Below are positions 1,693 through 14,421 of a stretch of 39,367 bases of DNA, one piece after another. This stretch comes from Sulfurimonas sp. (GTDB taxonomy: Bacteria > Campylobacterota > Campylobacteria > Campylobacterales > Sulfurimonadaceae). The stretch's first letter is position 1, and each line of letters starts with the position of its first letter. The notes below the pieces were generated by a model. It was not told the DNA's origin, ran no database searches, and saw only the letters and a list, made by a program, of their open reading frames with translations. A program made the position numbers and the translations under genes. The stretch is taken from assembly GCF_018698455.1 (NCBI RefSeq), contig NZ_JABIOQ010000055.1:1-39367 (forward strand), written 5' to 3'.

Positions 1693-2020
1693 AGGGGATA
1701 TTTGGTTAGTAAACCTTAACCCCATTAAGAAAAACAATGAAATGGGAAAAGTTCGACCAGTAGTTGTATTTCAAAATGATGTGTTAAATCATAGTGACTA
1801 TCCAACTACCATGATTATACCACTTAGCACATCACTAGTAGATGATACACAACCTATACGATATAGAATAAATAAAAGAGATAAACTAAGTGAAAATTCA
1901 GATATTGTAATAACTCAAATAAGAGCTATTGATAATGGTAGATTTATAGAAAAATTGGGTACTTTAACTATGGATGAGATTCAAGTAGTAAAAGAATTGT
2001 TTGCAGAAATAACACAATAA
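1679..2020 (+). CDS. MazF/PemK-family endoribonuclease toxin
   Basis: The protein (about 113 residues) has the PemK/MazF signature throughout: SKGDIWLVNLNP at the N-terminus, GKVRPVVVFQND, the TTMIIPLST strand and VITQIRAIDNGRF near the end. Members are small SH3-like barrel toxins that cleave mRNA at short sequences and are neutralised by the preceding antitoxin. The frame is open from a TTG at 1664, but the adjacent ATGs at 1679 and 1682 fit better: GAAGG at 1666-1670 is spaced 8 bases from 1679, and family members begin at the KGDIW segment. Length and motifs are complete, so the toxin is probably functional. The gene is followed by about 127 bases leading into the polysaccharide operon. 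Confidence 0.88.
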   Translation: MMVSKGDIWLVNLNPIKKNNEMGKVRPVVVFQNDVLNHSDYPTTMIIPLSTSLVDDTQPIRYRINKRDKLSENSDIVITQIRAIDNGRFIEKLGTLTMDEIQVVKELFAEITQ

Positions 2021-2112
2021 AAAACATCAGTAAAGATTCAAACCCTGTGTTTGAGGATAGTTTATAAATCAGTGTTAATAGTGGTTTTATAGGTATTTAA
2101 TAATCTATAGAG

Positions 2113-2118
2113 TATAAT
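2113..2118 (+). promoter_or_regulatory. candidate -10 box of the polysaccharide export operon
   Basis: TATAAT lies 30 bases upstream of the export-protein start, with AAGG at 2137-2140 acting as ribosome binding site 7 bases before the ATG at 2148. No good -35 hexamer is seen, which is normal for Campylobacterota. The next nine genes run head to tail with almost no gaps, so a promoter is needed here. Confidence 0.4.
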
Positions 2119-2147
2119 CAATAAAATTATGCTAACAAGGTCTCTTA

Positions 2148-4892
2148 ATGCTACAACGTTTACTCTTCCTTTCTCTCATTTCATACTCTTTACTCCATGC
2201 TGTTCCTAGTTTTTCCCAAATGAAAGAGGCTGTTAAAGCAAATCCAGAACTTTTAAACACTCCTCAAGCCAAGGCTATGATGAAAGAGAAAGGTGTAACA
2301 AAAGAGGATGTAAGAAAACAACTTGTTAATGATGAAATGAGTAGTAAAGTGACTGATGTTAAGGACATAGAGAACAATATAGATATAGTTGAGACTAATG
2401 AGACTAATAAGACTAATAAGACTAATAAGACTAATAAACTTGGAAAAAGACTCAACCCTTTTACATACAAAACAAATGAAGAACTTCGAGTTTCTTTAAA
2501 TTCCAAGCATCAGCTTCTAACACACAAAAAGCTTACTCGCTACTCAGATAGATTTTATGCGAATAAAAACATTATAGATAGTGCATCTTTACCAACTCCA
2601 GATGATTATACTATCTCAACTGGTGACATTTTAGAACTGCATATCTATGGGGACAGAAGTGAGATGCATGAGCTTGAAGTGAAAAATGATGGAAGTGTTG
2701 AGTTAGAGTTTATAGGCCCAGTAAGAGTAGGTGGACTTAGCTATCTAGAACTACAAAAACATCTTGAGAAAAGACTTAAAAGTCACTATAAATCAAGCTC
2801 TTTTAAAATCATACTGAGTAAATACAGCAGTATTCAAGTTACTCTTATAGGTGATGTGAAGTACCCTGGCATATATAACCTTTCATCTTTTTCAACAGCA
2901 AAAGATCTCCTTGTAGAATCAAAGGGAGTAAGAGAAAATGCATCAATTAGAGATATAGTCATAAAAAGAAATGGAAAAAGTGTTGCAAGTTTGGATTTTT
3001 ACGACTTACTCTTTGAGGGAAAAGATCTTTCTGGTGTTTTACTAAAGCATGGCGACATAGTAATCATTAAAAAAGCTAAAAAACTTGTTGGGATAGATGG
3101 CTATGTAAACAGTGCCTCTGTGTTTGAGCTTAAAGAAAATGAAACACTGACTAAACTTATAGAGTATGCAGGTGGAATGAAGGCTGACGCTTCAAAGAGA
3201 CATATAAAGATAGATAGATATAGTGAAAATTCTATTTTTGAAACATTTAACATATCGTATAGAAAAGCTAAAAACTTTAAGATGAAAGATGGAGATAGAG
3301 TTTACATTTATAAACTTGACGATAGTGCGGATCGCAATGTAAACATATATGGAAATATCATTCGACCAGGTAGTTATAGAATCGATGACAATGCAACGCT
3401 AAACAAACTCCTAAAAAGTCATTTGTCCACAGGGTTGAAAAAATTCTTTTTACCCGAGACATACTTCGCATATGGAATTCTTAAACGCTACTCGGATACA
3501 CTGAGTTATGAAACAATATCATTTAATCTTGAAAAAGTTTTGGCAGGGAAGCAAACACTTACATTACATCCAAAAGACGAAATATTTATATTTAGTAAAA
3601 ACGACATAGGGTCTAGTGAATACATTACAACTAAAGGGGATATTCTTACCAATGACGGAAAGATGAGATACTTTAGTGGCATGACTATACGAGATGCCAT
3701 TTTTGCTGCTGGCACAGATGGTGTGATGGATGAGAGAGTGAGAGTTACTACTATAAATACTCCAGATCATATGCCAAAAACAAGCTTTTACTCTTTTGAA
3801 GAAGATGCTAATGTAAAACTAAGTCCATATGACGAGGTGGAGGTTTATGACTACTACGAAACACATCTACTTCAGCCTGTAAGTATTAAGGGCGAAGTTG
3901 TAAACCCCATAACTGTTTTTTATGAAACAGGCATGACTCTTGCAAATCTTCTTGACTCATCGGGAGGTATAACTCCTATGGCATTTTTAAATAAAGTCGA
4001 GATAGTAAGATACTACATAGATGAAAAGAACAATAGAGATAAAAAAGTTATATATGTAAGTTTAAAAGACATTAATCCACAAGAGTATGTTGTAGAAGCT
4101 TATGATGAAGTGACTATTTATAAGATTCCAAACTGGAGTGATAAAAGAGTGGTGACACTTAAGGGTGAAGTTAAGTTTCCAGGGGACTATACTATAGGGA
4201 ACTCTGAAAAGTTGAGTAGTCTCATAAAAAGAGCAGGGGGCTACACTAATGAAGCTTTTGTAGAGGGTGCAGTTTTTACCAGAGATAGCATTCGGGTCAA
4301 ACAGATTGAGCAGTATAATGCATCTTTAGCTAAGATAAAAAGAGAGTTAGCTCTTTATAATGCAATGCCAGCCAACTCAAAGAAGATGGCTAGTTCAGGA
4401 GCAGACACAAGTACTCTTAACGATGTTATTTTAGAAGCAAAAAAGTACCAACCAGTTGGAAGAATAAGTATGAAACTCCAAAAAGATTTAGAAGTGTTTT
4501 CAGAGAGTGAGTATGACCTGATACTAAAAGATAAAGACACACTTTTTATACCAGGTCATATGGATACAGTAACTGTTTTTGGAGAGGTGTTTAACCCGAC
4601 ATCATTTGTATACTCATCAAATATGGATTTGGAGGATTACATTACACTGGCAAGTGGAGTCTCTCGTGCTGCTGATAGCTCAAACATATATGTGATTCAT
4701 GCAGATGGAACGAGTGAACCTGCAGATAGTGGTTGGTTTAGCTCTAGTGTTGAAATAGCTCAAGGCGACACTATAGTAGTGCCAGTTTACATTAAAGAGA
4801 CTAACTCACTTGACTTATGGGACAGTGTATCTAGAATCTTGGCTAGCTTCGCGATAACAGCTGCGACTCTCAATACTCTAGGTATTATGTAA
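2148..4892 (+). CDS. Wza-like polysaccharide export protein with multiple SLBB domains
   Basis: This 914-residue protein starts with a signal peptide (hydrophobic residues about 3-19) and a low-complexity linker. A Poly_export domain (about 150-225, beginning DDYTISTGDILELHIYGD) follows. I then count about seven SLBB-type units, each with a G-[DENY]-V-x-x-P-like strand and a later GG, for example IGDVKYPG, YGNIIRPG, KGEVVNP, KGEVKFPG and FGEVFNP. The C-terminus ends in a hydrophobic helix (ILASFAITAATLNTLGIM), as in outer-membrane polysaccharide translocons. It is much longer than enterobacterial Wza (about 380 residues) and resembles the large multi-SLBB exporters seen in many environmental bacteria. 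It overlaps the Wzz-like gene by one base (TAATG), consistent with the two forming an export and chain-length unit. Confidence 0.88.
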   Translation: MLQRLLFLSLISYSLLHAVPSFSQMKEAVKANPELLNTPQAKAMMKEKGVTKEDVRKQLVNDEMSSKVTDVKDIENNIDIVETNETNKTNKTNKTNKLGKRLNPFTYKTNEELRVSLNSKHQLLTHKKLTRYSDRFYANKNIIDSASLPTPDDYTISTGDILELHIYGDRSEMHELEVKNDGSVELEFIGPVRVGGLSYLELQKHLEKRLKSHYKSSSFKIILSKYSSIQVTLIGDVKYPGIYNLSSFSTAKDLLVESKGVRENASIRDIVIKRNGKSVASLDFYDLLFEGKDLSGVLLKHGDIVIIKKAKKLVGIDGYVNSASVFELKENETLTKLIEYAGGMKADASKRHIKIDRYSENSIFETFNISYRKAKNFKMKDGDRVYIYKLDDSADRNVNIYGNIIRPGSYRIDDNATLNKLLKSHLSTGLKKFFLPETYFAYGILKRYSDTLSYETISFNLEKVLAGKQTLTLHPKDEIFIFSKNDIGSSEYITTKGDILTNDGKMRYFSGMTIRDAIFAAGTDGVMDERVRVTTINTPDHMPKTSFYSFEEDANVKLSPYDEVEVYDYYETHLLQPVSIKGEVVNPITVFYETGMTLANLLDSSGGITPMAFLNKVEIVRYYIDEKNNRDKKVIYVSLKDINPQEYVVEAYDEVTIYKIPNWSDKRVVTLKGEVKFPGDYTIGNSEKLSSLIKRAGGYTNEAFVEGAVFTRDSIRVKQIEQYNASLAKIKRELALYNAMPANSKKMASSGADTSTLNDVILEAKKYQPVGRISMKLQKDLEVFSESEYDLILKDKDTLFIPGHMDTVTVFGEVFNPTSFVYSSNMDLEDYITLASGVSRAADSSNIYVIHADGTSEPADSGWFSSSVEIAQGDTIVVPVYIKETNSLDLWDSVSRILASFAITAATLNTLGIM
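2393..2437 (+). repeat. five-copy 9-base tandem repeat encoding Thr-Asn-Lys units
   Basis: Five tandem copies of GACTAATRA lie in frame within the export-protein gene and encode residues 83-97. Because the unit is 9 bases, gain or loss of copies keeps the frame. The protein reads E-T-N-E-T-N-K-T and then repeated N-K-T, giving overlapping N-X-T sequons, two of which have Glu at the -2 position (N84 and N87). It sits between the signal peptide and the export domain, in a region expected to be periplasmic. Confidence 0.8.
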
Positions 4893-5821
4893 TGAGTGAA
4901 AATACTGGGAATACATATATAGAAGAAGATGAGATAGACCTACGAGAGTTGTGGCAAACAATTTTAAAAGGTAAGAAAATCATAGCTATGATTACACTAG
5001 TTGTGGTTACTATGACTTTGGTATATGCTTTAAAGCTTCCAAATGTTTATAAGTCAGAAGCTATTCTTATACCGTCTTCAGAAGACTCTGGGCCTTCTCT
5101 TGGAGGACTTGGTGGACTTGCTGCTATGGCAGGGGTAAGCATAGGTGGCGGTGGATCAATGACACCTGATGTAGCCTTTAACTCACTGCTAAATAATTAT
5201 GAGTTTATGAAAAAGTTTGTTATAAATAATAAGATAGTTGAATATTATAATGGTAGTGAGGTAGATGAAAACTATGTTTTTGCTTTGGGTTTTAGAGGTG
5301 TCTATAATCTGTTTAAGTCAGAAGTGGATGAAGAAAAAAAAGACGATATAGATGCAGAAATTTATATGATTATTAAGAAAATAAGAAGTAACTTTTCAGT
5401 TTCAAGTGATAAAAAAACAGCTCTTATAACAGTTTCGTATAGCGATAGTGATAGAAGTTACCCACCGCAAATAATAAACGCATTTTTAAAAGATGCCAGT
5501 TCATACTTAGTAGAAAATAATTTAAGAATTATTAACAGTAAGTTGGGATATTTTGAGAGGGAGTTAGTAAGTGTAGATGGATTTGAGTTGAGAAAAAGTA
5601 TATCTTCAATCATCTCAAAAATATTAGAAGAGAAAATAATGATGCAATCAAAGGTTTACTACCAGTGTGATATTCTTACTTCACCTTCTAGTTCATATGT
5701 TAAAGATAAAACAAAGCCTAAACGAGCTCTTATTTTAGTGGTTTCATTTGTAACAAGTATCATCCTCGGTGTATTCTTAGTGTTCTTTTTAGAGTTTATA
5801 AAAAAAGAAGAAGATAATTAA
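4892..5821 (+). CDS. Wzz-family chain-length determinant protein
   Basis: The protein has 309 residues with a membrane helix near each end (about 33-53 and 280-302) and a large periplasmic part between them, the Wzz/PCP layout. The N-terminal cytoplasmic segment EDEIDLRELWQTILKGKK is a classic Wzz start. Residues about 70-94 form a Gly-rich loop, and a Pro-containing segment (KDKTKPKRALIL) precedes the second helix, as is conserved in the family. There is no C-terminal tyrosine-kinase domain, so this is a PCP-1/2a-like protein. It probably sets polymer length or opens the export channel together with the upstream multi-SLBB protein, whose stop codon it overlaps by one base. Confidence 0.88.
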   Translation: MSENTGNTYIEEDEIDLRELWQTILKGKKIIAMITLVVVTMTLVYALKLPNVYKSEAILIPSSEDSGPSLGGLGGLAAMAGVSIGGGGSMTPDVAFNSLLNNYEFMKKFVINNKIVEYYNGSEVDENYVFALGFRGVYNLFKSEVDEEKKDDIDAEIYMIIKKIRSNFSVSSDKKTALITVSYSDSDRSYPPQIINAFLKDASSYLVENNLRIINSKLGYFERELVSVDGFELRKSISSIISKILEEKIMMQSKVYYQCDILTSPSSSYVKDKTKPKRALILVVSFVTSIILGVFLVFFLEFIKKEEDN

Positions 5822-5823
5822 TC

Positions 5824-6873
5824 GTGACACTGATTTTAAAATTACTCGTAATTATATTATTCTCATATATTTTTGTGAAACTTATAATTAAGTATGCACA
5901 TAAACTAAATTTATATGATGTTCCAAACGAACGTAGTCATCACTGTAAGATTACTCCAAGTGGTGCAGGTATAGGCTTTATCTCTGCATTTTTTGTAGGA
6001 ATATTTCTGTTTGAATTTGAGCTTTTAAGTGAAGTTTGGTATGTGTTTACAGCAATACTTTTGGTGTTTTGTGTTGGCATTTATGATGATAGACATGATG
6101 TATCTGCAAAGTTAAAGTTTATGGCTATATTTTTGGCAGTATTTATTATGTGGTTTGGAGGAGTTAGTATAGATACACTTGGTGTTTGGTATGAATATGA
6201 CCTCACACTTGTGTCTTGGATAGCACTTCCTTTTAGTATGCTAGCAATTGCAGGTTTTACCAATGCTTTAAATCTCATTGATGGGATAGATGGATTGTCT
6301 AGTTCTATCTCCATTATAATCTTACTTTTCTTTGCATTCATAGGTTTTGAATATCATAGTGATCTATTAGTGATAATTTCTACTTTTACTATTGCGGCTA
6401 TTATAGGTTTTTTATTTTTAAACTGGTATCCTGCAAAGATATTTATGGGAGATAGTGGGAGTTTAAGTATAGGTTTTATTATCAGTGTATTAGCTGTTAT
6501 AAGCTTAAAGTATATTCATCCTATACCTATACTCTATTTGGCAGCTATACCAATTCTTGATACATTAGTAGTAATGGTGAGACGCATTAGAAGAAAAAAG
6601 TCGCCTTTTAAACCTGATAAAACGCATATTCACCATATAATGGTAAAATTCTTCGATATGAATGTTAAAAAAACGGTTGTATTCTTAGTGATTTTACAGA
6701 TAGTGTTTAGCTCTATAGGCTACATGATATTAGACTCCATAAATAAAAATGGCGGAAGTAATGTTCCTCTATTCGCACTTTTTGGTTTTATGATGATGTT
6801 TGTGCTTTTCTATATGATATTTACAGGCATACAAAGAAGACAAATAAAAATTGATAACAAAGTAGTTAAATGA
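5824..6873 (+). CDS. WecA/MraY-family undecaprenyl-phosphate sugar phosphotransferase
   Basis: This 349-residue integral membrane protein should transfer a sugar-1-phosphate from a nucleotide sugar to undecaprenyl phosphate and so start glycan assembly on the inner membrane. Family motifs are clear: NERSHH followed by PSGAGIGF near the N-terminus, YDDRHDVSAKLKF (the DD motif), NALNLIDGIDGLS, FMGDSGSL, and the HIHH motif in a cytoplasmic loop (about residue 261-267). About ten hydrophobic helices are visible. The start is a GTG at 5824, two bases after the Wzz gene; no better ATG exists before the first helix. Its 3' end overlaps mqnE by 4 bases. The sugar substrate cannot be told from sequence; GlcNAc-type or bacillosamine-type sugars are both possible. 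Confidence 0.87.
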   Translation: MTLILKLLVIILFSYIFVKLIIKYAHKLNLYDVPNERSHHCKITPSGAGIGFISAFFVGIFLFEFELLSEVWYVFTAILLVFCVGIYDDRHDVSAKLKFMAIFLAVFIMWFGGVSIDTLGVWYEYDLTLVSWIALPFSMLAIAGFTNALNLIDGIDGLSSSISIIILLFFAFIGFEYHSDLLVIISTFTIAAIIGFLFLNWYPAKIFMGDSGSLSIGFIISVLAVISLKYIHPIPILYLAAIPILDTLVVMVRRIRRKKSPFKPDKTHIHHIMVKFFDMNVKKTVVFLVILQIVFSSIGYMILDSINKNGGSNVPLFALFGFMMMFVLFYMIFTGIQRRQIKIDNKVVK

Positions 6874-7904
6874 AAAGAATAAATTTTGAAGAAGCACTTA
6901 AACTGTATGAGATGGATTTTTTTGAGCTAGGTGAACGTGCTGATAGTAAACGCATAGAGATGCATGGTAAAAAGACATACTTTAACATAAACCGTCACAT
7001 AAATCCGACAAATGTTTGTGCAGATGTTTGTCTTTTTTGTGCTTACTCTGCAACTCGTAAAAATCCAGACCAGTATACTATGAGTCATGAAGATATCATG
7101 AAAACAGTTGAAGAGATAGACCAACGTGGTGCTAAAGAAGTACACATAGTATCTGCTCATAACCCAAATGTTACACTTGAATGGTACTTGGGAATCTTTA
7201 AAAAGATAAAAGAGGGGTATCCTCATCTTCACATAAAGGCATTAACTGCTGCTGAAGTTGACTTTCTATCTCGCCATCATGGACTTACTTATGATGAAGT
7301 ACTTGACCTTATGCTTGAAAATGGTGTGGACTCTATGCCCGGTGGTGGTGCAGAAATTTTTGATGAAAAAGTACGAGATAAAATCTGTAAGGGAAAAGTG
7401 ACATCAGACCAATGGTTTGAAATACATAAAAAATGGCATGAACGCGGTAAAAAATCAAATGTAACGATGCTTTTTGGACATGTAGAATCTCGAGAAAACC
7501 GTATAGACCATATGATGAGAATTCGTGATTTACAAGATATAACTGGTGGGTTTAACTGCTTTATACCTTTGGTATATCAAACTGAAAATAATTACTTAAA
7601 CATTGAGGCACCTATAACAGCCAATGAGATACTCAAAACAATGGCAGTATCGCGTTTAGTACTAGATAATGTGCCAAACTTAAAAGCATACTGGGTGACT
7701 TCGACTGTTAACTTAGCTCTTGTTGCTCAAGAGTTTGGAGCCAATGACCTTGATGGTACCATAGAAAAAGAGTCTATAAACTCTGCAGCAGGGGCAAAAA
7801 GTGCAAATGGTGTGGTTTTAGAAGACTTCATAGCTTTAATAAAAAATAGTGGTTTTAACCCAGTTGAACGAGATAGTCTTTATAATGAAATAAAAGCTTG
7901 GTAA
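6870..7904 (+). CDS. mqnE: aminofutalosine synthase (radical SAM), menaquinone biosynthesis
   Basis: This 344-residue enzyme is a radical SAM protein with the cluster cysteines C50, C54 and C57 in a CxxxCxxC arrangement. It is preceded by HINPTNV and followed by the conserved AYSATRKNP. The MPGGGAEIFDEKVRDKIC and GFNCFIPLVYQ segments are characteristic of MqnE rather than MqnC. It would join dehydropurinylated chorismate and SAM to give aminofutalosine in the futalosine route to menaquinone, which Campylobacterota use. It overlaps the upstream sugar phosphotransferase by 4 bases and is co-directional with the glycan genes, although no metabolic link is known. The position is probably historical, or provides co-expression only. 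Confidence 0.92.
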   Translation: MKRINFEEALKLYEMDFFELGERADSKRIEMHGKKTYFNINRHINPTNVCADVCLFCAYSATRKNPDQYTMSHEDIMKTVEEIDQRGAKEVHIVSAHNPNVTLEWYLGIFKKIKEGYPHLHIKALTAAEVDFLSRHHGLTYDEVLDLMLENGVDSMPGGGAEIFDEKVRDKICKGKVTSDQWFEIHKKWHERGKKSNVTMLFGHVESRENRIDHMMRIRDLQDITGGFNCFIPLVYQTENNYLNIEAPITANEILKTMAVSRLVLDNVPNLKAYWVTSTVNLALVAQEFGANDLDGTIEKESINSAAGAKSANGVVLEDFIALIKNSGFNPVERDSLYNEIKAW

Positions 7905-7913
7905 AAAGCTCAA

Positions 7914-8723
7914 GTGATCATTACGGTTATCATCCCCAGCTATAACCGTTATGAGCTTTTAAAACGAGCTTTAGACTCTGTTTATACTCAAACCTTTCTA
8001 CCCAAAGAAGTCATCGTTATAGATGATGGCTCAACGGACAATACTTACCAAATTAAAAATGATTTTCCTAGTGTAAAGTACATATATCAAAAAAATAGTG
8101 GTGTCTCGTCAGCTAGAAATACTGGGATTAAAAATGCCAGTTTTGAATGGATTTCTTTTTTAGACTCAGATGATGAATGGATAGAAGACAAGCTGGAAAA
8201 ACAAGTAAATTTTCATCAGCAAAGTAAAGATGTTTTAATGAGTTATACAGACGAGATTTGGATTAGAGATGGAGTTTTAGTGAAAATACCAAAAAAATTT
8301 AGAAAAATTGGATCAGATGTATTTTTAGAAAATCTCTCTTTTTGTAATATAGCTCCATCATCTGTACTTATACATAAAACTATACTCGATGATGTTGGCT
8401 TATTTGATGAAGAGTTGGAAGTGTGTGAAGACTATGATTTATGGTTGAGAATAGCACAAAGTTATAAGATAGGTTTAGTACATGAAAAACTGATAAAAAA
8501 ACATGCAGGCCATGAAGAGCAACTTAGTTTTAAACATTGGGGTATAGATAGATTTAGAGTACAAGCATTAGAAAAACTTTTATTAGCTACTTCAACGACT
8601 AACAAAGAGCTAATAAAAGTAGAACTTATAAAAAAATATACCTTATTAAAAAAAGGTGCAGTTAAATATGATAAAATAGCAGATATTAATTTATATACAA
8701 GGCTACTACTTGCTCACACTTAA
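7914..8723 (+). CDS. GT2-family glycosyltransferase
   Basis: This 269-residue protein has a GT-A fold. The N-terminus (ITVIIPSYNRYELLKRALDSV) and IDDGSTDNT are hallmarks of family 2, and FLDSDDEW around residue 83 carries the DxD metal-binding motif. CEDYDLWLRI near residue 173 is the catalytic ED region. No membrane helix is present, so it likely works on the cytoplasmic face, adding a sugar to the lipid-linked glycan begun by the WecA-like enzyme. The start is a GTG at 7914, nine bases after mqnE. The end overlaps the pglB start by 14 bases. Donor and acceptor cannot be predicted. Confidence 0.87.
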   Translation: MIITVIIPSYNRYELLKRALDSVYTQTFLPKEVIVIDDGSTDNTYQIKNDFPSVKYIYQKNSGVSSARNTGIKNASFEWISFLDSDDEWIEDKLEKQVNFHQQSKDVLMSYTDEIWIRDGVLVKIPKKFRKIGSDVFLENLSFCNIAPSSVLIHKTILDDVGLFDEELEVCEDYDLWLRIAQSYKIGLVHEKLIKKHAGHEEQLSFKHWGIDRFRVQALEKLLLATSTTNKELIKVELIKKYTLLKKGAVKYDKIADINLYTRLLLAHT

Positions 8724-10839
8724 CAAAGATACAAAAAAAACACTTCTTTATATATCTATTGCTTTTACATTTTCAGTTCTTATGCGTTTGATCTGGGTTT
8801 ATCAGTTTTCCGGGGTAGAGGCCTTTAAGTTTAATAATCAATTTATGATAAATACTAATGATGGGTATTATTATGCTGAAGGTGCGAGAGATTTATTGAG
8901 TGGTATTTCACAAGATAATGATTTGTCTCCCATTACATCAGCTGGTTCACTGTTAACGGCATTTTTTGCAAAAATTCTACCGTTTTCCTTTGAGAGTGTT
9001 ATCTTTTATTTACCAGTGTTTTTAAGCTCTTTAGTTGTCATCCCTATTATCCTCATCGCAAAAGGCTTGAAAAATTTAGAGATGGGATTTATTGCTGCAC
9101 TGCTTGCCAGCATTACTTGGAGTTACTACAACAGAACGATGGCAGGCTACTACGATACAGATATGTTAAATATAGTTCTTCCTATGTTTTTACTCTGGTC
9201 TATCATATGGGCGATAAATACAAATGAAAATAAGTATCTCATCATCACAGCGATAGATATTCTTATATACAGATGGTGGTATCCTCAAAGTTACTCTTTA
9301 GAATTTTCATTTTTCGGGCTAATACTTTTATATGCTCTTATTTTCGATAGAAAAAATATGTTTAATTATAAACTTTTAGCAATTATGATGCTTGCGATGA
9401 TGAATATTGATGGTTTTATCCGCTTGCCATTAGTTCTTGGAGCTTTTTATATATTTACACAAGAAAAGTTTGATAAATATATTTATTATATTTTAGGTGC
9501 TTCAGTTCTTGGCTTTTTTGTATCTGGTGGTTTTGATCCTATTTGGAGCAAGCTAGAATTATATGTATTTAAAGATGCAATCTCAGTTGGAAAAGAAGGT
9601 CTTAACTTACACTTTTTTACAGTAATGCAAACTATTAGAGAAGCGGGTCAAATTCCTTTTGAAACTTTCGCAAATCGTATTAGTGGACATGCGGCAACCT
9701 TTATAATTTCCATAGTTGGATATGCTTATCTTGTCTATAGACATAAGATAATGATATTTGCATTACCAATGGTTGGACTTGGATTTTTAGCTAGTGTTGG
9801 AGGGCTGCGTTTTACTATTTATGCGGTTCCTATCTTAGCATTTGGAATTGCCTTTTTAATTACTGAGATTTCTTTGAAAATGCCTACAAATAAAATGAAA
9901 GTTTTATCGATGGTGGCATTTACTTTAGCAATTTTATATCCTAACTATAAACATATAGATGCATATAAAGTTCCAACAGTATTCACAAATGATGAAGTAA
10001 AAGTTTTAGATGTATTAAAGACAAAAGTAGATAGAGAGGACTATGTAGTTTCTTGGTGGGACTATGGCTATCCTATAAGATACTACGCAGATATGAAAAC
10101 TTTAGGTGATGGCGGAAAACATAGTGGTAGTGTTAATTTTCCACTAAGTTATATGTTAACTAGTTCACAGGTTGAAGCTGCGAAAATGGCAAGGTTAGAT
10201 GTAGAGTACACAGAACAGAAGTTTAAGTACCTTAAAGAGAATAAAGAAGAGATAGAAGATAAAAACATTACTATATTCTCAAATATAGAAGATATGACAA
10301 AAGATTATGGTTTTAATGACACAAATGATTTTTTATTCTCACTTCAAACTGAAATGACATTACCGAAAAAAACAAGAGACATTTACTTCTATCTGCCGTT
10401 TAGAATGTTAAATATTTTACCAACAGTAACTCTGTTTTCAAATATGGACTTGATGACTGGTACAAAAGGCAAACAACCTTTTTTCTTTGTAAGTAAAAAC
10501 TTTAAAGATAGTGGATCCAAAATAGATCTAGGACGTAGTATTTATATAGATAAAGCTACATCTAGCATCGTTATAGGTCAACAAAAAATACCTATGAAAA
10601 GATTTGTGAAAACTACATACAATGCTCAAAAGAAGTTAGATGTAAATGTACAACTCATAAACCCTACATCAGATATAAGTGTAATATATATGGCAAACTA
10701 TAATACCTTTTTAGTACTTGATGAAAAAATGTATAACTCTTTATATATTCAACTAATGGTTTTAGAAAATTACAATAAAAACCTATTTGAAGCAGTTACT
10801 TTAGATCCAAATGTAAAAGTCTATAAGTTAAAAATTTAA
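8710..10839 (+). CDS. pglB: PglB-type oligosaccharyltransferase (STT3 family)
   Basis: This 709-residue protein is close in length to Campylobacter jejuni PglB (713). Many N-terminal membrane helices precede a periplasmic C-terminal domain holding the signature WWDYG at 449-453. An Asp at 51 in NTNDGYYYAE is in the position of the metal- and catalysis-related Asp of the first external loop. The enzyme would move a finished glycan from undecaprenyl pyrophosphate to Asn in a sequon of periplasmic proteins. The start appears to be TTG at 8710, overlapping the glycosyltransferase gene; the next in-frame ATG lies inside the first helix. Its place beside a WecA-like initiator and a GT2 enzyme suggests a short N-glycan pathway sharing an operon with polymer export genes. 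Confidence 0.93.
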   Translation: MLTLNKDTKKTLLYISIAFTFSVLMRLIWVYQFSGVEAFKFNNQFMINTNDGYYYAEGARDLLSGISQDNDLSPITSAGSLLTAFFAKILPFSFESVIFYLPVFLSSLVVIPIILIAKGLKNLEMGFIAALLASITWSYYNRTMAGYYDTDMLNIVLPMFLLWSIIWAINTNENKYLIITAIDILIYRWWYPQSYSLEFSFFGLILLYALIFDRKNMFNYKLLAIMMLAMMNIDGFIRLPLVLGAFYIFTQEKFDKYIYYILGASVLGFFVSGGFDPIWSKLELYVFKDAISVGKEGLNLHFFTVMQTIREAGQIPFETFANRISGHAATFIISIVGYAYLVYRHKIMIFALPMVGLGFLASVGGLRFTIYAVPILAFGIAFLITEISLKMPTNKMKVLSMVAFTLAILYPNYKHIDAYKVPTVFTNDEVKVLDVLKTKVDREDYVVSWWDYGYPIRYYADMKTLGDGGKHSGSVNFPLSYMLTSSQVEAAKMARLDVEYTEQKFKYLKENKEEIEDKNITIFSNIEDMTKDYGFNDTNDFLFSLQTEMTLPKKTRDIYFYLPFRMLNILPTVTLFSNMDLMTGTKGKQPFFFVSKNFKDSGSKIDLGRSIYIDKATSSIVIGQQKIPMKRFVKTTYNAQKKLDVNVQLINPTSDISVIYMANYNTFLVLDEKMYNSLYIQLMVLENYNKNLFEAVTLDPNVKVYKLKI

Positions 10840-10840
10840 G

Positions 10841-11632
10841 ATGAAACTACTTCTTTTCCTCTTTTTAAGTAGCTCTCTTTATGCAGTTAAACCTGAACTC
10901 TTACTTTTAAATAAGTATTCAGAAGATGTAAATGTCTCTAGTTGGTATATGAGTGAAAAACTTGATGGTGTTAGAGCTTACTGGGATGGCAAGCGACTTA
11001 TTTCAAGAAATGGAAAGGTGTTTTCAGTACCACCTTGTTTTATTAAGGACTTTCCAAGCAGTGAACTTGATGGTGAACTTTGGAGTAAAAGAGGAAACTT
11101 TTCAAATATATCTTCAATTGTTCGAAAAAGACAAGCTAATGAATCTTGGAAAGAATTAACGTACAATATTTTTGAAGTTCCAAATGCAGAGGGGAACTTG
11201 TTAGAAAGATTAAGTACTGTAAAACTTAGTAAATATATAAAAGTCATTAAACAAATAAAAATAGAAGATAAAAAGCACTTGAATGAATTTCTTAAAAATG
11301 TAGAAGAAAAAGGCGGGGAGGGTGTAGTTGTCCGAGATGGTAGCCTCACTTATTATACAGGTAGAAATAACAATGCACTCAAGGTTAAAAGTTATGTTGA
11401 TGATGAATGTGAGGTTACCGGTTATACAACTGGAAAAGGAAAATACAAAGGCATGACTGGAGCATTACTCTGTAAAATGCAAAATCAAAATATTATCAAG
11501 ATTGGTAGTGGACTATCTGATCAAGAGAGAATCAATCCGCCTAAAATTAGTGCTATAATTACATTTAAATATTATGGATTAACTTCAAAAAGGAATCCGA
11601 GATTTCCTATATTTTTAAGAGAAAGGAAATAA
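10841..11632 (+). CDS. exported minimal ATP-dependent DNA ligase (Lig E type)
   Basis: This 263-residue protein begins with a signal peptide (MKLLLFLFLSSSLYA). The nucleotidyltransferase motifs of ATP-dependent DNA ligases follow: motif I K40-L-D-G with K40 as the adenylated lysine, ELDGELW (motif III), GGEGVVVRDG (motif IV) and LKVKSY (motif V), then a small OB domain. It has no extra DNA-binding domain, as in the Lig E group of Neisseria, Haemophilus and Campylobacter. The group is thought to act outside the cytoplasm, perhaps on extracellular or incoming DNA, but this role is not settled. The ATG lies one base after pglB, so it is transcribed with the glycan genes without an obvious functional link. 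Confidence 0.88.
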   Translation: MKLLLFLFLSSSLYAVKPELLLLNKYSEDVNVSSWYMSEKLDGVRAYWDGKRLISRNGKVFSVPPCFIKDFPSSELDGELWSKRGNFSNISSIVRKRQANESWKELTYNIFEVPNAEGNLLERLSTVKLSKYIKVIKQIKIEDKKHLNEFLKNVEEKGGEGVVVRDGSLTYYTGRNNNALKVKSYVDDECEVTGYTTGKGKYKGMTGALLCKMQNQNIIKIGSGLSDQERINPPKISAIITFKYYGLTSKRNPRFPIFLRERK

Positions 11633-11638
11633 AACGGC

Positions 11639-12850
11639 ATGAACTATAGTGATAATTTTAATCCTACGATATTAAACAATAATTTATTTAAAGAAATTGT
11701 AAAAGAAAAAAAGACTATAGGTTACTATAACCTAGTAAATCAAGATACTGCAGAGTTTAAAAAGTATGCTTCAACAGTAAAGCAAAAAAATATTGTTGTT
11801 ATGGGAATAGGAGGAAGTACTCTTGGAACCTATGCAATATATAAGTTTTTAAAACATTCAAAAGAATTGAGTAAAAAACTTTATTTTTTGGAAACAACTG
11901 ATCCTATTGATATTCAATCAAAAATAGAAGATATCGATCTTAGCGATACACTATTTATAGTTATTTCAAAGTCTGGTACAACTGTAGAAACTATTTCTAT
12001 TTTTAAATATATAAACTCATTGGTAAAAATTGATAAAAATAATACACTTATAATTACAGAGTTCGATTCTAAGTTGAATGCTTATGCAAAAGCAAATGAT
12101 ATGCAAACATTTGAAATTCCAAAAGATATTGGTGGGCGATTTTCAGTATTTTCGGCTGTTGGTTTAGTCCCTTTAGCAATAGTAGGGATAGACATTGATG
12201 AGATAATAGCAGGAATAAAAAAAGTTTATGACTCATTTTTTGCCAAGACGGATGTATATAGAAATATCATAAAAAAAGCAAGATTTTTTGTAGAGTATAA
12301 AAATAAGTTCAACATTAATGTCGTTTTTTCATATTCATCGCGTTTAGAAGGATTTAACAAGTGGTACATACAGCTTTGGGGAGAGAGTCTAGGTAAGATA
12401 GACATAAACTCTACTAACCAAGGACTCACCCCAATAGGTATAATAGGGCCAATAGACCAACACTCTTTTTTACAGTTAATAGTCCAAGGTAAACGCGATA
12501 AAACAGTGAGTGTTATAAAAGTTGATGATTTTGACAATGACCTGAAAATACCAGCTGTAGAACTTGAAGGACTAGAGGAGTTGAACTACTTAGATGGAAT
12601 AGAATTCTCTTCACTAATCAATAAGCAAGCAGATGCTACAATAGAATCAATCAATAGTCTCGGTGATATACCTTGTGATGTTATAACTATAGAGGGTGTA
12701 AATGAGCAAGCGATAGCGAGTTTGATGTATGAGTATGAACTTTTAACATCGGTGTGTGCAAAGTTTATGTACATAAATGCTTACGATCAACCTGGTGTTG
12801 AGAGTGGAAAGATAATTTTAAAGAAAAATTTAAAAAACTTAACCATATAA
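11639..12850 (+). CDS. pgi: glucose-6-phosphate isomerase
   Basis: This 403-residue protein is the short form of Pgi found in Campylobacterota. Motifs are in order: VVMGIGGSTLGTY (about 53-65) and ISKSGTTVET (about 109-118) for phosphate binding, DIGGRFSVFSAVG, GESLGKIDINSTNQG, GPIDQHSFLQL, and the C-terminal AYDQPGVESGK with the conserved lysine. It interconverts glucose-6-phosphate and fructose-6-phosphate, feeding amino-sugar nucleotide synthesis as well as glycolysis. It is the last gene of the operon that starts at 2148. Its final 110 bases have a diverged second copy at 16714-16827, just before the legionaminic acid genes, which marks an insertion or exchange at this point. Confidence 0.93.
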   Translation: MNYSDNFNPTILNNNLFKEIVKEKKTIGYYNLVNQDTAEFKKYASTVKQKNIVVMGIGGSTLGTYAIYKFLKHSKELSKKLYFLETTDPIDIQSKIEDIDLSDTLFIVISKSGTTVETISIFKYINSLVKIDKNNTLIITEFDSKLNAYAKANDMQTFEIPKDIGGRFSVFSAVGLVPLAIVGIDIDEIIAGIKKVYDSFFAKTDVYRNIIKKARFFVEYKNKFNINVVFSYSSRLEGFNKWYIQLWGESLGKIDINSTNQGLTPIGIIGPIDQHSFLQLIVQGKRDKTVSVIKVDDFDNDLKIPAVELEGLEELNYLDGIEFSSLINKQADATIESINSLGDIPCDVITIEGVNEQAIASLMYEYELLTSVCAKFMYINAYDQPGVESGKIILKKNLKNLTI

Positions 12851-12897
12851 AAGCCAATTTATCCACAATATTTATATAGATTATTTGTATCTTATAG

Positions 12898-12903
12898 TAT
12901 AAT
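12898..12903 (+). promoter_or_regulatory. candidate -10 box upstream of the ATPase gene
   Basis: TATAAT lies 30 bases before the ATPase start in an AT-rich spacer that follows pgi. The 83-base gap is unusually wide for this locus, so a separate promoter for the accessory gene is likely. No convincing -35 is seen. Confidence 0.35.
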
Positions 12904-12933
12904 ACTCGAATAATATACTAAAAAGGCTAGAAA

Positions 12934-14421
12934 ATGATAGGAAGAAGAAAAGAATTAGCAATTTTAAATAATATTTGTGAAGAAAAAGAAAGTAAGTTAG
13001 TTGTAGTTCATGGCAGAAGAAGAATAGGAAAAACATACTTAATAGATTATATGTTTAAAGAGCATAGAGCAGATTGTCTATTTTTTAAATTTACAGGCAG
13101 TGCAGAACAAGATAGTAGTATCCAAAGAGATTATTTTATCGAAGCTATCTATGAATGGTTTAAGATAGAACCAAAAACTCCAATTTTAAAATGGCACCAA
13201 GTTTTTATGTTTTTAAAAAGAGCAATAGATGAAGAGATAACAAAACGACATCATAAAGGTAAAGTAATTGTTTTTATTGATGAGGTTGCATGGATTGATA
13301 AACATAATAAAGCAGGCTTCCTAAGTGCCTTTGGGCATTTCTATAATACTTATATTGAAAGTAATAATAATCTAGTAGTAATACTTTGTGGATCTAATGC
13401 ATCTTGGATTAAAAATAAAATACTTAAAGATACAGTTGGTCCTCTTTATCATAGAGTGGATGTAGAGATACCAATGCTACCGTTTGACCTTAAAGAAACA
13501 AAAGAATACCTCATCAATGAAAAAAGATTTGACATTGATAATAAAAGTGTAGTCGATATTTACATGGTATTGGGCGGAATTGCAAAATATCTAAGCTATC
13601 TTGACTCAAAACTTTCAATATCTCAAAACATCAATAACTTATTCTTTAATCTTAACTCCCCACTATATGATGAATATGATGCAATTTTTAAATCATTATT
13701 TTACGATAAAGCAACAGCTCATAAAAATATAATAGATCTACTTAGCAACAAACAATCTGGTTACACAATGTTGGAGTTAGATGTGCATATAGAAGATAGT
13801 AAAATTCATGCAATAAGAAATCATATAGATGAATTAATAGATACAGGTTTTGTAAAGCCTGTAAATAGATTTAATAATAAAACTAAAGATACCAAATATA
13901 TAATAATTGATTCTTTTAGTTTGTTTTACAATAAGTGGGTAAAGCCATTAAGTAAGAATGATATAGCTTCAATGGTTAATTATTTTGACACAAAATCTCA
14001 ATCTCATGACTATATAATATGGCAAGGTTACGCATTTGAAACTGTATGTATTGCTAATATGCATCTATACTTAAATCAACGAGGACTAAGTGCAGCATTA
14101 AAAAGTGTAGGTTATTGGAACTATATACCTAATAAAGATATTATTAAAGATAAGGGTGCTCAAATAGACATCTTAATTGAATATACAAATAATACATATG
14201 ATATTGTTGAGTGCAAATATTATAATGATGAATTTACTATTGATAAATCATATACAGCTAATCTATTAAATAAAAAAGGTAAATTAATAGAACATGGTAT
14301 AGTAAATAAAAAATATGATTTAAAAATGATTATGCTTACTACATATGGGACTAAGATAAATCAATATTACAATCAAGTAAATATTTCTCAAAATGTAGTG
14401 ATTGATGATTTGATGAAATAA
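12934..14421 (+). CDS. DUF234-type ATPase with PD-(D/E)XK-like C-terminal domain
   Basis: This 495-residue protein has a P-loop with HGRRRIGKT at about 26-34 and a Walker B strand VIVFIDEVAWID at about 108-119. A sensor-like strand VVILCGSNASWI and a winged-helix-like middle part follow. The C-terminus resembles a PD-(D/E)XK nuclease fold, with D412 followed by E426-C-K428 (VECKYY). This matches the archaeal-type ATPase/DUF234 family that is widespread in bacteria and archaea. Its biological role is unknown; mobile-element and defence links have been suggested. It stands alone with its own likely promoter, directly behind pgi, and is the first gene of the accessory island. A hairpin-forming repeat follows 20 bases after its stop. 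The family call is firm; the function is not. Confidence 0.82.
   Translation: MIGRRKELAILNNICEEKESKLVVVHGRRRIGKTYLIDYMFKEHRADCLFFKFTGSAEQDSSIQRDYFIEAIYEWFKIEPKTPILKWHQVFMFLKRAIDEEITKRHHKGKVIVFIDEVAWIDKHNKAGFLSAFGHFYNTYIESNNNLVVILCGSNASWIKNKILKDTVGPLYHRVDVEIPMLPFDLKETKEYLINEKRFDIDNKSVVDIYMVLGGIAKYLSYLDSKLSISQNINNLFFNLNSPLYDEYDAIFKSLFYDKATAHKNIIDLLSNKQSGYTMLELDVHIEDSKIHAIRNHIDELIDTGFVKPVNRFNNKTKDTKYIIIDSFSLFYNKWVKPLSKNDIASMVNYFDTKSQSHDYIIWQGYAFETVCIANMHLYLNQRGLSAALKSVGYWNYIPNKDIIKDKGAQIDILIEYTNNTYDIVECKYYNDEFTIDKSYTANLLNKKGKLIEHGIVNKKYDLKMIMLTTYGTKINQYYNQVNISQNVVIDDLMK

Follow-up and report, generated by a model that had tools for sequence, protein, structure and literature searches.

Tandem sequons in the tether of a Wza-like exporter of Sulfurimonas point to a probable acceptor region for PglB

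The gene for a polysaccharide exporter of Sulfurimonas sp. contains a short tandem DNA repeat encoding overlapping N-x-T sites, and the gene for the oligosaccharyltransferase PglB lies in the same run of genes. The question raised by this locus is whether the repeat belongs to a segment of the exporter that is glycosylated by PglB, or is a by-product of a hydrophilic composition or of slippage-prone DNA. The window analysed here is the whole stretch of 39,367 nucleotides, and the features on which the argument rests are as follows.

2148–4892, + strand: Wza-like polysaccharide exporter, 914 aa, Poly_export/SLBB/GfcC_C (domain profiles, PDB sequence and fold matches)
2328–2453, + strand: linker (tether), residues 61–102, predicted disordered (AlphaFold2 pLDDT <50, alignment)
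2391–2435, + strand: five tandem 9-base units, GAG/AAG ACT AAT (sequence, Tandem Repeats Finder, frame)
2397–2405, + strand: sequon N84-E-T with Glu82 at −2, predicted PglB site (sequence, frame)
2406–2414, + strand: sequon N87-K-T with Glu85 at −2, predicted PglB site (sequence, frame)
2415–2423, + strand: sequon N90-K-T with Lys88 at −2, probably a poor PglB site (sequence, frame)
2424–2432, + strand: sequon N93-K-T with Lys91 at −2, probably a poor PglB site (sequence, frame)
4892–5821, + strand: Wzz-type chain-length determinant (profile match; usual exporter neighbour in relatives)
5824–6873, + strand: sugar-phosphate transferase, PF00953 (profile match)
8710–10839, + strand: PglB oligosaccharyltransferase with R323, E311 and WWDYGY at 449 (profile match, PDB alignment)

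Read in frame, codons 82–96 of the open reading frame at 2148–4892 are GAG ACT AAT twice followed by AAG ACT AAT three times, confirming the sequence-only reading, which described five 9-base repeats encoding overlapping N-x-T sites, with Glu at −2 of N84 and N87. Tandem Repeats Finder places the array at 2392–2437 (period 9, 5.1 copies, 97% matches), and its score of 85 is the highest of 26 rows for the 39-kb window, the runner-up scoring 76. Encoded by the array are four abutting N-x-T sequons (N84, N87, N90 and N93), with Asn at every third residue; N96-K-L is not a sequon. The acid of D/E-x-N-x-S/T is present at N84 and N87 and absent at N90 and N93: AAG replaces GAG in three of the five units, so that the later sites lack the −2 acid, and the Lys found there is probably poor for PglB. 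In a pure (N-E-S/T)n array, the x of one sequon doubles as the −2 acid of the next, and a single codon gives the acid. Elsewhere in the window, a 23-base tandem repeat of 2.3 copies at 67–119 overlaps the start of the first listed open reading frame.

The exporter contains Poly_export (PF02563, 55.8 bits with a cut-off of 28), SLBB (123.9 bits) and SLBB_2 (126.5 bits, cut-off 27) domains, and its N-terminus resembles a signal peptide, as judged by eye. Its best match in the PDB, both by sequence and by fold, is Wza, with an E-value of 6.6e-18 for the fold match and low TM-scores (0.16 by query and 0.37 by target, over 298 columns). An N-terminal lipobox Cys is the mark of the Wza lipoprotein proper; none is present in exporter residues 1–24, and the protein is therefore classed as Wza-like, not as Wza. 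In common with the Wza/OPX exporters are the Poly_export and SLBB domains and the Wzz neighbour, whereas its length of 914 residues, several SLBB repeats, N-terminal helices and tether, along with the missing Cys, set it apart from Wza, which is shorter and lipidated. Inserted between short N-terminal helices (residues 22–60) and the export domain is the tether itself, residues 61–102, with pLDDT <50 in an AlphaFold2 model built on 31 sequences (mean pLDDT 74.3, pTM 0.39). Conserved columns of the exporter alignment flank the tether, and nearly none fall within it. The tether is thus predicted to be a flexible, exposed acceptor segment.

The window PglB is the sole STT3 match in its genome, and aligns almost end to end with PDB entries 5ogl, 6gxc and 3rce, which we take to be C. 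lari PglB (best match 536.6 bits). R323 aligns to R331 of C. lari PglB, the Arg of the −2 pocket, and E311 aligns to the catalytic Glu of the solved PglB, presumably E319 of the C. lari enzyme. Both residues are kept in 56 of 56 PglB loci of relatives (at least three of which repeat one gene), with an exact WWDYGY motif in 53 of them, and core matches to PglB are present in 108 of the 135 genus genomes. Judged by its sequence, the window enzyme looks intact. No match to a PglC-type initiator (PF02397) is present in the window's own 98.1%-complete genome, which has three PF00953 matches; one of these is the window gene at 5824–6873, presumably a transferase of the WecA/WbpL kind. This transferase of the operon, or another of the three, might start the glycan. 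PglK was not recognised when two of the three ABC_membrane matches were compared with the PDB (best 60 matches). In PMC4894442, where the enzyme panel includes an S. denitrificans enzyme, R331 is considered to contact the −2 acid and is also retained by relaxed PglBs, so that the Arg by itself is no proof of a strict −2 requirement.

Tethers corresponding to query residues 60–101 were taken from 34 orthologues, 26 of them from the window's genus (25 genomes, its own included) and eight from other genera of the family. The 25 genomes were drawn from 38 genus genomes with an exporter match, and give 26 tethers since G091 is counted twice; omitted were G128, in which the gene is broken, and G014, G016, G019, G024, G031, G044, G045, G072, G073, G075, G087 and G122, as distant homologues or fragments. 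Eight of 11 family genomes from other genera were used, with G148 and G185 omitted and G158 added later as L134. The alignment-based scan comprises 48 loci, among which L143 and L149–L152 are outside the comparison, L140 has no linker, and L144 and L145 duplicate G197 and G150, respectively. Paired exporter paralogues lie close together in G091 and G158 (L062, L092), and no sequon is present in the tether of the second G091 copy. In G128 (L098, about 2303–3542), stop codons interrupt the exporter gene; four acidic sequons can be counted by eye in its readable tether, which includes the run NDTNETNST.

Together the 34 tethers contain 52 N-x-S/T sequons, 34 of them acidic (D/E at −2), where tether-wise shuffles give 6.7 ± 2.5 and the mirror motif 4; leaving out the window's tether changes the counts to 32 observed and 6.5 in shuffles. 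At least one acidic sequon is present in 16 of the 34 (shuffles 6.1 ± 2.2, mirror 3). The 26 genus tethers, in which the number of acidic sequons varies from 0 to 4 between species, account for 48 sequons, and D/E occupies −2 in 33 of these (background 0.23), about five times the number in shuffles (6.2 ± 2.4; mirror 4). The eight tethers of other genera show no enrichment, with one acidic sequon in total against 0.6 after shuffling, and downstream of the tether there is no excess of acidic sequons (25, with 22 for the mirror motif and 19.7 in shuffles). Conservation in relatives, to which the sequence-only reading had pointed as a check, is thus seen as a specific enrichment of acidic sequons at the genus tether.

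Ancestry and composition are held alike when the same tethers are searched for other positions of an acid and of Ser/Thr relative to Asn. Among 90 such offset pairs, the PglB placement (−2,+2) has the highest total in the genus tethers (33, with 20 for the next and a median of 7), and in the 17 exporters below 65% identity it totals 22, followed by 12, with a median of 4.5. Its lead shrinks to 15 against 14 when tethers are counted instead of sites, and disappears in the non-redundant set, with 9 each. Smaller acid peaks at −5 (17) and +4 (19) in the genus tethers are expected from tandem sequons. That the sequons stem from chance or composition is rejected on the strength of the shuffles, the mirror motif and the 90 offset pairs, with the lead in tether counts being small. 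Acidic sequons at the tether of relatives being far above chance, the tether is probably a natural target of PglB. Genus-wide, codon arrays for N[D/E][S/T] in two copies occur at 67 places and those for the permuted N[S/T][D/E] at 46 (in 52 and 35 of 135 genomes), counts that carry little weight because 13 of 30 and 16 of 30 of the loci read have no open frame of more than 60 residues.

Sequon-encoding tandem repeats are present at the tether in four genomes, the window's included, and their units differ. The tether of G101 has (AAT GAG AGT)x4; outside the genus, a 27-base unit in 3.1 copies encodes DQNAS, EQNAS and EQNAS (L124), and a 9-base unit in 2.7 copies encodes ETNETNET (L137). A single AAT GAG ACT, the window's unit, is found in the tether of G091. 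Across 31 exporter genes, Tandem Repeats Finder (score of at least 40) detects six arrays in tethers and nine in the far longer remainder; four of the six encode sequon arrays, and those of G060 and G201 do not. When the tether is excluded from the tree, the window and G101 exporters belong to separate subclades of a clade in which all eight tips have at least one acidic sequon, and over the 34 tips the presence of acidic sequons switches eight times by parsimony. These eight changes, and the arrays in different subclades, indicate that the sites come and go between species, with repeat expansion as one route. The tunable glycan number suggested earlier for the exporter is supported only in part: tandem duplication of a short unit in some lineages makes repeat and site number differ between species, but three of the five window units encode Lys at −2, and extra copies of these would add sites lacking the −2 acid.

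The proposed placement of pglB in the exporter operon is borne out in the window, where pglB lies inside a co-directional run at 2148–12850 whose open reading frames overlap or are at most 9 bases apart, with no terminator-like site in 1900–13200. The run consists of the exporter, wzz, the PF00953 transferase, an mqnE-like gene, a GT2 gene, pglB, a ligase and pgi. In relatives, wzz follows the exporter wherever the fetched DNA continues, except at the broken G128 gene, and no pglB is present in the fetched exporter regions (3.9 to 23 kb). Some of the mqnE-like, GT2, ligase and pgi genes lie near pglB in the six regions read around it in relatives, none of which contains an exporter. With pglB elsewhere in relatives, the joined operon looks local, and sharing it provides no independent support for a substrate–enzyme pair; as evidence for such a pair, operon linkage is rejected, exporter and pglB being apart in the relatives' regions read. 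The gene at 6870–7904, beside those for GT2 and PglB, encodes a radical SAM protein with a CofH/MqnC C-terminal region, and counterparts with 81–91% identity are found in four of the six pglB regions. Located between pglB and pgi, at 10841–11632, is an ATP-dependent DNA ligase (PF14743, PF01068) with a signal-peptide-like N-terminus, a relative of which is near pglB in three of the six.

Genus tethers have on average 1.37 acidic sequons in genomes with pglB (n = 19) and 0.2 in those without (n = 5; P = 0.049, kinship ignored); setting the incomplete G080 and G118 as lacking pglB gives P = 0.34, kinship again ignored, and seven of the 19 tethers from pglB-bearing genomes have no acidic sequon. 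Pooled over genera, with G080 and G118 omitted, the means are 1.09 (n = 34) and 0.125 (n = 8; permutation P 0.027, Fisher 0.059, kinship ignored), two of the three added pglB-lacking tethers being short and from distant homologues. Sulfuricurvum and other family genera have PglB in their genomes, yet hardly any tether sequons. The dependence of tether sequons on the presence of pglB suggested by these counts is weak.

The exporter array is likely to be part of a PglB acceptor region, with the tether carrying N-glycans. As a candidate N-glycosylated target, which it was first proposed to be from its own sequons and operon, the exporter gains from the genus enrichment, the predicted disorder and the intact-looking PglB, and loses the pairing within an operon, pglB being absent from the exporter regions of relatives. 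The tether could instead be merely a disordered, hydrophilic spacer rich in N, T, E and K, with a slippage-prone repeat and with sequons that are unused by-products of composition. Such a spacer would fit the mostly sequon-free linkers of other genera, the Lys at −2 in three of the five window units, and the linker repeats of G060 and G201 that encode no sequon array, but shuffles that keep composition yield 6.2 acidic sequons where 33 are observed, the mirror motif 4, and the PglB placement is first among 90 by total; we regard it as unlikely. It is highly improbable that another system modifies the linker by O-glycosylation, with the N-x-S/T pattern being secondary: Ser and Thr make up 23% of genus linker residues, but the preference seen around Asn, for an acid at −2 and for Ser/Thr at +2, is that required by N-glycosylation of the PglB type.

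A further alternative concerns the repeat itself, which might be of the contingency type, its copy number shifting within species and thereby tuning the glycan number of the exporter. The DNA repeats of the window and G101 are near perfect and in frame, their arrays lie in different subclades of the tree, and the G091 tether holds one AAT GAG ACT unit, all of which is compatible with such a repeat; against it, one genome per species was compared, three of the five window units lack the −2 acid, and five copies of 9 bases are short for a fast contingency locus, making this role rather improbable. We are equally doubtful of a wider scheme, in which in-frame minisatellites at the exporter tether would be repeatedly born, expanded and eroded in Campylobacterota, every unit giving a sequon as well as the −2 acid of its successor, with slippage altering N-glycan number while the frame stays intact, possibly within populations.

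As a PglB acceptor region, the tether would receive its N-glycans in the periplasm, after secretion of the exporter. In the window exporter, glycosylation is likely at N84, N87 or both and unlikely at N90 and N93; it is doubtful that two glycans would fit at a distance of three residues. Tether sequons would be kept or regained over evolution, in some lineages through in-frame tandem duplication of 9 or 27 bases. The arrangement resembles the Campylobacter PglB system (CmeA, CmeC) in its enzyme family, its D/E-x-N-x-S/T rule and a target in an envelope-spanning export machine; it differs in that the target is the polysaccharide exporter of a Sulfurimonas-like bacterium, with sites in a predicted disordered tether that are known from sequence, and in that some genomes build the sites by a short tandem DNA repeat. 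By analogy with CmeA, the glycans could protect or stiffen the tether, or guide exporter assembly: N-glycans on C. jejuni CmeA raise thermostability and aid assembly of the envelope-spanning pump (PMC7683400). Site number in homologous glycoproteins varies between species, CmeA having two sequons in C. jejuni and one in C. hepaticus (PMC9816155).

A search of titles and abstract openings in one literature collection found neither N-glycosylation of such a polysaccharide exporter nor repeat-encoded PglB sequon arrays. Engineered multi-sequon tags in bacterial glycoengineering likewise string PglB sequons along a flexible peptide, whereas the window array is natural, has a three-residue spacing and lies within an exporter. 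The roles of bacterial N-glycans on proteins are poorly defined, and much of the work concerns pathogenic Campylobacter. Here, from comparative sequence alone, an exporter tether of sulfur bacteria emerges as likely to be a PglB target under selection, and the natural series of 0 to 4 acidic sequons could serve to relate glycan number to exporter assembly or stability. A further suggestion is that tandem sequons can arise naturally from short DNA repeats.

Acidic sequons were also counted in other proteins. In the relatives' regions, with proteins classed by a crude hydrophobicity (signal-peptide) rule and homologous regions counted more than once, there are 11 in 20 secreted-like proteins (shuffle 4.0 ± 2.0, mirror 7), 24 in 73 polytopic proteins (shuffle 11.6 ± 3.7, mirror 11) and 48 in 83 unclassed proteins (shuffle 24.2 ± 4.8, mirror 18), with a smaller excess in 176 cytoplasmic-like proteins (56; shuffle 47.4 ± 6.9, mirror 46). 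The window's own genome was sampled by the window and 20 further stretches, 15% of the genome in all; in this sample, the 24 secreted-like proteins show no clear excess (9 acidic, shuffle 6.4 ± 2.2, mirror 5), and the cytoplasmic-like proteins have 53 (shuffle 49.9, mirror 62). Five of the nine in the secreted-like proteins sit in one lipoprotein. This 183-residue predicted lipoprotein (L238:13735–14283, on contig 7 of G000) has five N-x-S/T sequons, three near the N-terminus and two at the C-terminus, all five with an acid at −2, and judged on these it is likely to be another PglB target. At about residue 147, two similar proteins of the further genus members G034 and G061 (L189, L200) contain NDSNESNETNQT and SNESNESNQS, another candidate sequon array.
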